Below, piece after piece: positions 39,823 to 42,456 of a DNA stretch of 64,000 bases. Position 1 is the first letter of the stretch, and each line of letters opens with the position of its first letter. Origin of the DNA: Moniliophthora roreri (lineage: Eukaryota; Basidiomycota; Agaricomycetes; Agaricales; Marasmiaceae). The notes below the pieces were generated by a model. That model searched no databases, had not been told where the DNA came from, and saw nothing but the letters and a program-made list of their open reading frames with translations. A program made the position numbers and the translations under genes. The stretch is taken from assembly GCA_001466705.2 (NCBI GenBank), contig LATX02000240.1, positions 1 through 64,000 of the forward strand, in the 5' to 3' direction.

Positions 39823-42456
39823 TCAATTGGACAGAAGAAGGCCATTTGCATGTATGATACCTTTTGTCCAATGTTCATTTCCAGATATGAAATCAGACCG
39901 GACAATCTTCCCTCGTTGAACAACCTTGCCCGCTCCTTCCCATTTGAGATACACTCCCTCTACTCGGCCATCCCAGAACTTTGACTGGCATTGGACCATT
40001 TTCTTCAGCTCGTCCTGAGATGGTAGCACGCCTTCGTACATGACAGGAACAATGAAAATAGACGTTGGCTCCAGGAGAGCCATCAACGTCTGCCTATCAA
40101 CAAAGGTATCTGTACTCCGGTCATACAAATCGAACGCCATGAAGAGATCTGGAAGTTGCGAGTATGGGATTGAGTGTGTGGCATAGAGCCATTCACCAAA
40201 GAGGACGTATCGTTCCGCGAAAAGTTCGTCTCGGTCAAGAATGGAGTACAACTCCTCGCGATGTTTCTCAACCCAAAGTCCGAGCTTCTTGAATTGCTCG
40301 TGAGTAGATGAGTTAACGTAGTGCGAACGGTTCTGCACAATGATCTGGGAACGGTTTGAGGATAACGAGAAACCCATATTTGCACCATCTACTTTCTCCG
40401 TGATGACGACGTAGTCGTTGGTGTTGCTTGGCATGAACGATGGTTCCGAGACCAAGTCGTCCTCAGTCGCAGCACCAAGATTGATGATATGCGGGGTTCT
40501 AGGGAACTTGTAAATGTTCACTGGAGGAGAAAGGCGAGTCACCAGTTCCATTGCAGCTGCAAACGAGCGAACAGTGATGATCGTCCTGAAACCTTCTTTC
40601 AATACTGGCCGAACGAAAACCTTTTGCATCTGGCTCACGGCATTGCGCACACGACTGCCAGGTGGCAGAGTGGGATGACTTGTCCTCATCTGGGCTCTAG
40701 ACAGACATAACTCTTCGTCGTAATCGAACCAAACGCAGACAGGCTGCGTCGCCCAGCTCGAGGCGAGATCAAGCCACTGTTTTCGATCCGAAGCAGCAGT
40801 ATTACACCTATCCAGCAGCACCTTTCTTGTTCTCGGATGTCCTATCTCTGTCTCGCATGACGATCTGCTTCCTGAATCATCCTGTGAGATGCGAGTCCAG
40901 CTTTTGGCATCCCTCGCAAGTAGTGCTCGAGAGAACCAGGACTTTCCTGAGCCTGGAAGGCCAACCAACACAAACAGGTCGGCCAATTTCTCCGGTGTGC
41001 CCTCAATCTCAAGTGGGCATGGTGGCGGTTCACAAGGCAGTTCAGGATAAATGGACTGCCGCTTCCAGATGGTGCTACACCACTTGGATACGAAGGCCTC
41101 TTGCTGGGAGGTCTCTATACTGCCTGGACGTATATTTCGAAGAGTAACGACAGCATCATTCGCAGACATCTCCGGATGATCTTGGTTTGGGCGAGGCTTG
41201 CTAAAGCCGTACGCTGCAATATAGCAAGCAATTACCGTTCCTGCACGTCCTTTTCCACCGCCGCAGTGAATGAGCGTAGGAAGCTTGGACTCGTCTTCCA
41301 TTAGCCTGATAACAATATCCATCTGCTCAATAGAAGGAGGGTGATAGTTCGGAATGGGAAGGAATGTGTTTGTGATCGGCTTTCCATGGAACCATGCTTC
41401 TGGCAGGGGTGTCTCCTCGGTTAAGGTTAAAACATGCTTGATCCCAAGGGATGCCAATAACGTGATGTCGTGTTCTTCGCGTGGAGTGGACATGGCGGCC
41501 AAATGGTATGGGATTACCCACCGAAAGAAGCGAGGAAGTTTGTGGAATTGAGGTGTATATTGACCTGGAGTAGAATGATAGAGGGCTTCTCGAGACTCCA
41601 AACATAGAGTAGGGAGTACCACTCTCTCGCTGATCGCAAAGCACAGCTCTGCAGACCATGGTGCTATTAGATGCGAGGCTATTTCATCGGGTAGCTGGTT
41701 GAGTTCAACCTCCTGGAAGACAGTTCCCCATACTGAATGTTCAGAACAGGAGAAGAGTCGCTTGATGCAATACGCCCTCACCCGTTCATCTGTCGTACGG
41801 TCGTAGGCGCATGCAAAGGATAACATTGCCAATTTATGTTGACCACTTTGGAACGCAGCGTCAGCAAGTCTGGATGATGGAGGTCAATGACCTTCAGAGA
41901 GAACGGGTAACAAAATACTGTACCTAAGGTAACCTCGATGCGAGTCGGGAGACAGCAAAGCCAGCTTTGTTCCATACAGCTGAGCCCGAGTATAGTGGGA
42001 AAATAGGTGTAAAGTGAACGCCAAATGATCCAAAAAGTCGGGAGAGGGATTTTCAGGAAACTGGCCCGGCAACAAGACATGTATTCCTTTATCCATTTCA
42101 TGATTGTCGGACGAAGTGAGCGTAATATGGAAGTGTTTGGGAGGAAGGCCAAGACGTTTGCGGAGTTGTTGTCCCTCTGCCCATATTACAACCGCAAAAT
42201 ATACTCCCCTGGCTCTGCTTCCACCCAGTCCGGCAACAAAAACACGTCCGATATCAACATCTGTGTATAGACTCGCTACCAGATCCGCAGAAAGACCACG
42301 AAGTTCTTCCTTAGTCACAACGGTTATATGATATGGTGCAGGGGCATCCAAAATGCTTTTGTCAATCTGGGAGCTTTGTGTAATTCGCGAGGCCAAGTCG
42401 TCGACGTGTTCCCCGACGAGGGCGATATAGCCCCGAAATTTGAGAAGTTTAGCCAT
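39823..42456 (-). CDS. Four-enzyme RNA end-repair fusion: 2H phosphoesterase - DUSP23-like phosphatase - polynucleotide kinase - RNA ligase
   Basis: Two exons (intron about 41,873-41,925, donor GTACAG, acceptor TCCAG) encode about 859 residues. Residues 1-178: a 2H (LigT/CPDase-like) domain with H43-I-T45 in PAPYHITVVT and H110-I-T112 in HFHITLT, expected to open 2',3'-cyclic phosphate. Residues about 179-250: a TPR-like helical hairpin (ADAAFQSGQHKLAMLSFACA). About 285-450: a phosphatase resembling DUSP23, with FRWVIPYHLAAMSTPREE, LASLGIKHVLTLTEE, and signature IHCGGGKGRAGT (C380, R386). About 465-620: a P-loop kinase, GLPGSGKS (481-488) and VLLDRCN (DRCN 531-534), as in polynucleotide kinases. 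About 640-859: an RNA ligase with nucleotidyltransferase motifs I EKVDG (K670), NRSHYV, III FGEW (735-738), IV EGVYLK (815-820) and V RGKIVR. All active-site residues except the phosphatase general acid look intact. The start is ATG 42456. It lies downstream of the PKS on the same strand. Confidence 0.9.

Follow-up and report, generated by a model that had tools for sequence, protein, structure and literature searches.

In phage T4 (Pnkp with Rnl1 or Rnl2) and in the bacterial Pnkp/Hen1/Rnl systems, RNA is healed to 3'-OH and 5'-phosphate ends and is then joined by an Rnl-type sealing reaction. A combination of RNA repair domains on a single polypeptide is also catalogued in Pfam, through two models, PF22547 (2H-SAK) and PF22784 (PTP-SAK), that are named for the Swiss Army Knife (SAK) protein; Burroughs and Aravind (2016) are reportedly the source of the name. 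The tRNA ligases of yeast and plants are described as leaving a 2'-phosphate, which is removed by a phosphotransferase (PMC3400036). Our analysis of a 64,000-nucleotide stretch of the genome of the agaricomycete Moniliophthora roreri (GenBank assembly GCA_001466705.2, contig LATX02000240.1, positions 1 to 64,000; hereafter the window) deals with a single minus-strand gene for a SAK-type RNA repair protein. From the N to the C terminus the protein consists of a 2H phosphoesterase, a helical stretch, a DUSP23/VHZ-like phosphatase, a P-loop polynucleotide kinase and a minimal Rnl2-type RNA ligase. An earlier note, made from the letters without database searches, had claimed such a single polypeptide with four enzymatic parts and had supposed that the combination might already be on record; both claims hold, as all four Pfam domains are matched and the kind is already known and widespread.

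Removal of one short intron gives an 859-residue product without internal stop that is identical, letter for letter, to P0001, the deposited M. roreri MCA 2997 protein named 'dna ligase iii', and the gene, coordinates, strand and residue numbers first proposed were thus correct (Table 1). A search of 59.4 Mb in 154 contigs places the whole protein at one genomic site, with 100% identity over residues 1-859, and the 2H-SAK profile likewise maps to one place, on the same bases as the 2H domain in the window. An alternative 78-nucleotide intron, which would give 851 residues and shift the residue numbers past the junction by -8, was rejected, as relatives keep the residues that it removes and the shorter intron yields exactly the deposited protein; Pfam scans of the two forms return the same leading families.

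Table 1. Window coordinates of the SAK-type RNA repair gene of M. roreri and of the parts of its product.
Feature	Position	Strand	Evidence
Whole gene, start codon to stop, SAK-type RNA repair protein, 859 aa	39823..42456	-	Spliced translation identical to P0001; single genome place
Exon 1, residues 1-177 plus two bases	41924..42456	-	Deposited protein
Intron, 54 nt, GTACAG...TCCAG	41870..41923	-	Deposited protein; relatives' consensus across the junction (LRLADAAL.....KLAML)
Exon 2, last base of codon 178 to stop (stop included)	39823..41869	-	
2H phosphoesterase, residues 9-119, HxT H43 and H110	42100..42432	-	Pfam 2H-SAK 3.6e-21
Helical region, probably TPR-like, residues about 139-260, split by the intron	41623..42042	-	AlphaFold helices
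DUSP23/VHZ-like phosphatase, residues 290-438: C380, R386, N352, E430, A387	41089..41535	-	PTP-SAK 8.5e-60
P-loop polynucleotide kinase, residues 473-626: Walker A 481-488, D508, D531, N534, R540	40525..40986	-	AAA_33 7.5e-13
Minimal Rnl2-type RNA ligase, residues 629-859: K670, E737, D758, E815, K832	39826..40518	-	RNA_ligase 4.9e-34

The identity of the parts is supported by motifs, profiles and fold. The HxT, CX5R, Walker A, DRCN and ligase motifs that had been read by eye were all found in P0001 (HIT at 43 and 110, CGGGKGR at 380-386, GLPGSGKS at 481-488, DRCN at 531, EKVDG at 669-673, NRSHY at 691, FGEWLY at 735 and RGKIVR at 830); in the ligase we take K670, E737, D758, E815 and K832 to be motifs I, III, IIIa, IV and V, respectively. 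Both SAK models match far beyond their cut-off, and 2H-SAK, PTP-SAK, AAA_33 and RNA_ligase occur together in 31 of 31 Agaricomycete members (E up to 0.5). Nothing distinguishes the window protein from other SAK proteins, and its phosphatase is of the PTP type, not of the HAD type (PF10307, HAD_SAK_1); a Pfam scan found no HAD phosphatase domain in it. The AlphaFold model (mean pLDDT 91.2, pTM 0.83) matches VHZ, polynucleotide kinases and Rnl2-type ligases in fold, VHZ being the closest among the matches listed, which are mostly phosphatases. Among the best relatives, by which we mean the best 120 of 552 protein-search matches, the phosphatase residues C380 and R386, the kinase residues G481, G486, K487, D508 and D531 and the ligase residues K670, E737, E815, G816, R830 and K832 are kept in all 120, N534 and R540 in 119 and D758 in 118; an alignment limited to 106 of these proteins shows conservation of 90% or more for H43 and H110. 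A second search, whose query combined the ligase domains of fern, Dothideomycete and unnamed proteins, added 108 proteins, in which our own domain profiles detected all four domains in 75, kinase and ligase only in six and other sets in three.

Compared with fungal Trl1, which works together with Tpt1, the window protein would do the same overall job and likewise joins a CPDase or 2H domain, a kinase and a ligase on one chain, but in the reverse order (2H, PTP, kinase, ligase against ligase-kinase-CPDase), with a phosphatase inserted and with a ligase of another family (PF09414, no match to PF09511), all as had been supposed. Its kinase resembles the Clostridium and mammalian polynucleotide kinases in a fold search, whereas, unlike the Pnkp systems, it has a cysteine-dependent phosphatase of PTP fold in place of a HAD phosphatase or metallophosphoesterase, a single polypeptide and added 2H and helical parts. 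The ligase shares the nucleotidyltransferase fold and motifs of T4 Rnl2, Naegleria Rnl and the trypanosome RNA-editing ligase but ends soon past motif V, with only 24 residues beyond R835; its similarity to solved ligases is marginal, with a best profile-search value of 2.3e-4 and no match in a single-sequence search. Two features had been overlooked in the earlier note: the helical middle and the loss of the IPD-loop aspartate from the phosphatase. The interpretation given in the note is supported in part.

The same genome contains the classical pathway. A canonical Trl1 lies at C45:185058-187494, with ligase (PF09511), kinase (PF08303) and CPDase (PF08302) in that order, the stops inside some of the matches being taken as introns. 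The Tpt1 family (PF01885) gives seven matches, six of them beyond the cut-off, on four contigs (C72, C10, C34 and C90), a spread that indicates more than one Tpt1-like gene or fragment. For RtcB, a profile search of the genome found no match (the control matched in 9 of 14), and HAD_SAK_1 was without match in the genome as in its control. Because a canonical Trl1 is encoded separately, Tpt1 homologues are present and RtcB gave no match, the window protein would be a second ligation route, apart from the Trl1/Tpt1 pathway, as the earlier note had anticipated when it called the enzyme independent and proposed to look for both genes.

From its sequence and predicted structure, we consider it reasonably probable that this SAK-type enzyme carries a complete pathway of end healing and sealing on one chain, separate from Trl1 and Tpt1; our confidence is high for the identity of the parts, moderate for the order of the reactions and low for the biological use. 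First, the 2H domain would hydrolyse a 2',3'-cyclic phosphate to a monophosphate, which by analogy with other 2H enzymes would be a 2'-phosphate. Second, the cysteine-based phosphatase would remove this monophosphate to leave a 2',3'-diol, with Glu430 serving as general acid in place of the lost IPD-loop aspartate. Third, the kinase would phosphorylate the 5'-OH and, fourth, the ligase would seal an ordinary 3'-5' bond through a Lys670-AMP intermediate. Unlike that of Trl1, the product would carry no 2'-phosphate, and Tpt1 would therefore not be needed. The siting of the phosphatase between the 2H domain and the kinase suggests, by analogy with phage-type repair, that healing to the 2',3'-diol comes first; in jumbo phages, kinases, phosphatases and probably 2H enzymes are described as preparing ends for ATP-grasp ligases (PMC7824862). 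The same source describes phage enzymes as acting on cyclic phosphates that arise from tRNA cleavage and from NAD-dependent RNA processing; in the SAK proteins, a polynucleotide kinase and an RNA ligase are fused to the other parts in each of the 120 best relatives, a fusion that points to RNA ends. Most likely the enzyme acts on tRNA or rRNA that a metal-independent nuclease has cut, and the helical part would probably hold the RNA, or a partner, in position.

A new detail of this pathway concerns the general acid of the phosphatase. Like human DUSP23/VHZ, the domain keeps the cysteine and arginine of CX5R and the Q-loop glutamate, but it differs from VHZ in having Asn352 at the place of Asp65, Ala387 at that of the threonine after the arginine, and a fusion to RNA repair domains. 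In an alignment to 2img and 4erc, where the numbering of VHZ follows the coordinates printed for 4erc, N352 falls on Asp65 of the IPD loop and E430 on Glu134. Among 225 related phosphatase domains, position 352 is N in 195, D in 21 and a gap in nine, and position 430 is E in 211; the pair reads N/E in 194, D/E in eight, D/Leu in eight, D/gap in five, gap/E in nine and N/A in one. The single N/A protein, P0315, reads RPGSVET in another alignment, that is, E at 430, and no clear case without either acid was found in the 225 domains; E430 is also invariant in the 106-sequence alignment. For VHZ itself, Glu134 has been described as the primary general acid and Asp65 as subservient (PMC9038691), and D-to-N variants of ordinary PTPs are reported to lose two to three orders of magnitude (PMC12848742). 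The pattern of residues fits an active enzyme with a relocated general acid. A dead or pseudo-phosphatase, which N352 and A387 might bring to mind, was set aside because C380, R386 and the equivalent of Glu134 are kept.

Several observations weigh against the proposed pathway. Both the IPD-loop aspartate and the Ser/Thr after the CX5R arginine are lost, the latter position (A387, window 41242-41244) being Ala in 195 of 221 domains, Thr in 24 and another residue or a gap in two. Replacement of this Ser/Thr by Ala is expected to slow release of the phospho-enzyme, and the two losses together could mean a weak or altered phosphatase activity. According to one account, Glu134 of VHZ is a backup acid and not the primary one (PMC12848742). 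On a ligase tree of 118 rows the changes are few (D/N at least nine, E/non-E at least three), and a correlated change of Asp and Glu is not supported: only four independent pairs lie on well-supported branches (sign test p = 1). For this test one in six of the N rows of the main set was used, rows that could not be read at 352 were dropped, P0315 was set by hand to N/E/A, and five D rows that have a gap at 430 were counted as non-E. The 2H quartet HTHT was read in 97 of 120 best relatives and in 69 of 78 in the second protein set; the remainder is a mixture of gene models cut short, shifts in the alignment and perhaps genuine losses. PTP, kinase and ligase occur without 2H in 24 of the 108 further proteins, and the 2H step is therefore missing in some lineages or gene models. 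Finally, the TPR assignment of the middle region is weakly supported: of 31 relatives, 12 match TPR_14 with E values up to 0.5 (best 0.0015), and in P0331 TPR matches lie between 2H-SAK and the ligase, but a Pfam scan of the window protein gave no TPR match.

These same residues bear on a different use of the phosphatase, which we regard as unlikely: it could act, as DUSP11/PIR1 and the triphosphatase of the capping enzyme do, on 5'-triphosphate or 5'-diphosphate RNA, so that ahead of sealing 5'-monophosphates would be made from 5'-OH ends by the kinase and from 5'-ppp ends by the phosphatase, with the 3'-diol coming from elsewhere. The lost IPD-loop aspartate speaks for such a role, and phosphoanhydride leaving groups need less help from an acid. 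The capping enzyme MCE1, the baculovirus RNA 5'-phosphatase and DUSP11/PIR1 are described as PTPs without a WPD motif (PMC9038691). However, the retained equivalent of Glu134 makes the domain VHZ-like rather than acid-free, and VHZ was also its nearest listed neighbour in fold. Moreover, the reaction of the fused 2H domain would otherwise stop at a phosphate, which a ligase of the Rnl2 type should not accept.

A mode of action like that of Trl1 seems improbable. The 2H domain would then leave a 2'-phosphate, the ligase would seal over it, and the phosphatase or Tpt1 would clear the scar later. Tpt1 homologues are at hand in the genome and 2H enzymes usually yield 2'-phosphates, but the ligase is of the PF09414/Rnl2 type, not of the PF09511/Trl1 type, it ends shortly past motif V, and enzymes of the Rnl2 type should require a free 3' end with no phosphate next to it. 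That the four domains result from a fused model of neighbouring genes, or belong to a decayed gene, is scarcely credible: although the sole splice junction does fall in the helical stretch that separates 2H from phosphatase, the phosphatase, kinase and ligase all lie within exon 2, the frames are intact and the sites conserved, and the four domains stand together in 120 of 120 best relatives and in the 75 further proteins mentioned above.

The end-healing and sealing architecture is widespread. Judged by name, the named proteins among the best 120 of 552 matches are from Agaricomycetes. Beyond this class, the full Pfam set was found in the Dothideomycetes Aureobasidium and Delphinella, in the chytrids Geranomyces, Gaertneriomyces, Powellomyces, Thoreauomyces and Phlyctochytrium, and in one fern assembly, Adiantum nelumboides. 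Proteins from Adiantum capillus-veneris (P0282), the liverwort Calypogeia (P0322), Trebouxia (P0335) and Kwoniella (P0330) have no listed 2H-SAK match, and fragments occur in Phytophthora and in the rotifer Adineta. The order of domains also varies: P0301 reads 2H-ligase-kinase-PTP, P0328 (Emiliania) PTP-exonuclease (RNase_T)-kinase-ligase and P0314 RWD-kinase-ligase. A quick ligase tree was built from 84 rows, with about one bacterial locus in three, one viral locus in two and chosen eukaryotes. In it the sequences from eukaryotes fall together with 14 of 15 unnamed metagenomic ones, apart from the bacterial sequences (SH-aLRT 92, open fork). One group within the tree unites the basidiomycetes with Phytophthora, Adineta and Trebouxia (98), another the Dothideomycetes with the chytrids and A. 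nelumboides (96). These groupings depart from the species tree and thereby suggest transfer between eukaryotes or ancient paralogy, with contamination as a further conceivable source, above all for the A. nelumboides protein.

The nearest bacterial relatives of the ligase keep different company. From at least 533 matches we kept the best 80 loci; eight were dropped and 72 had assignable neighbours within two open reading frames. An ATPase of the AAA_15/DUF3696 type lies upstream on the same strand in 58 of the 72, and a gene of about 176 residues, PIN-like by eye and without Pfam match, does so in 46; at least one of the two is present in 63 loci, both in 41 and neither in nine. In PADLOC, three of the ATPases match HEC-03B (5e-99 to 7e-131) and two of the small genes HEC-03A (1.5e-28 and 2.4e-30); neither P0001 nor any of the four tested bacterial ligases matched a model there. 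Given these neighbours and matches, the ligase looks like a third gene of a HEC-03-like candidate defence operon, and HEC-03 may be a nuclease/ATPase/RNA-ligase operon. Fungal profiles for 2H, PTP and kinase found none of these domains within the 80 loci. At one locus, L085, a gene with HD and AAA_33 domains lies beside the ligase.

An origin of the full protein in giant viruses was considered and found no support, as the 15-member metagenomic group A5 (803-933 residues) led to 15 IMG/VR loci, none of which holds the full fusion by our own profiles. One of the viral loci has the set split between two convergent genes, 2H-PTP-kinase on the minus strand and the RNA ligase on the plus strand (L172:7669-10117, IMGVR_UViG_3300024981_000137), adjoining genes for a PP-loop protein, an M13 peptidase, a methyltransferase and IMPDH.

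The neighbours of the M. roreri gene are of other kinds. A gene for an Xrn1-type 5'-3' exoribonuclease, spread over several frames (XRN_N, XRN_M, D1, D2/D3), occupies window positions 2898-6506 on the plus strand, about 33 kb away. Minus-strand open frames at 44166-57497 match acyltransferase, phosphopantetheine-attachment and NAD-binding reductase, and P450 domains; this polyketide-like gene group adjoins the repair gene probably by chance.

What the enzyme is used for can be sketched only tentatively. It is possible that mushroom-forming fungi and scattered other eukaryotes share a second, Tpt1-independent and scarless ligation route, with a cysteine-based RNA 2'- (or 3'-) phosphatase whose acid moved from the IPD-loop aspartate to the Q-loop glutamate and a ligase that shares ancestry with the ligases of bacterial nuclease/ATPase defence operons, and that this route repairs RNA after it has been cut by the nucleases of an enemy or by the cell's own. 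RNA ligases that bdelloid rotifers acquired horizontally (PF09414 being among the domains treated) are described as strongly upregulated under fungal attack (PMC11258130), and the Adineta fragment P0180 is 61% identical to the window ligase over 77% of it; neither observation presumes that the two gene sets are the same, and together they give a hint only about biological use.

Among the papers listed by searches of an open-licence library, titles and abstract openings yielded no experimental study of a fungal SAK. New here are the precise structure of the gene, the helical stretch, the exchange of the acid residue, the presence of a separate Trl1 and Tpt1 in this genome and the contexts in bacteria and viruses. 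Relatives carry misleading names such as 'dna ligase iii', 'ATP dependent DNA ligase' and 'Dual specificity protein phosphatase 23', and their role is therefore easily overlooked. If the mechanism holds, an enzyme of PTP fold would be an RNA end-healing phosphatase, and many fungi would have two independent routes for joining RNA, one that leaves a 2'-phosphate for Tpt1 and one that leaves none.
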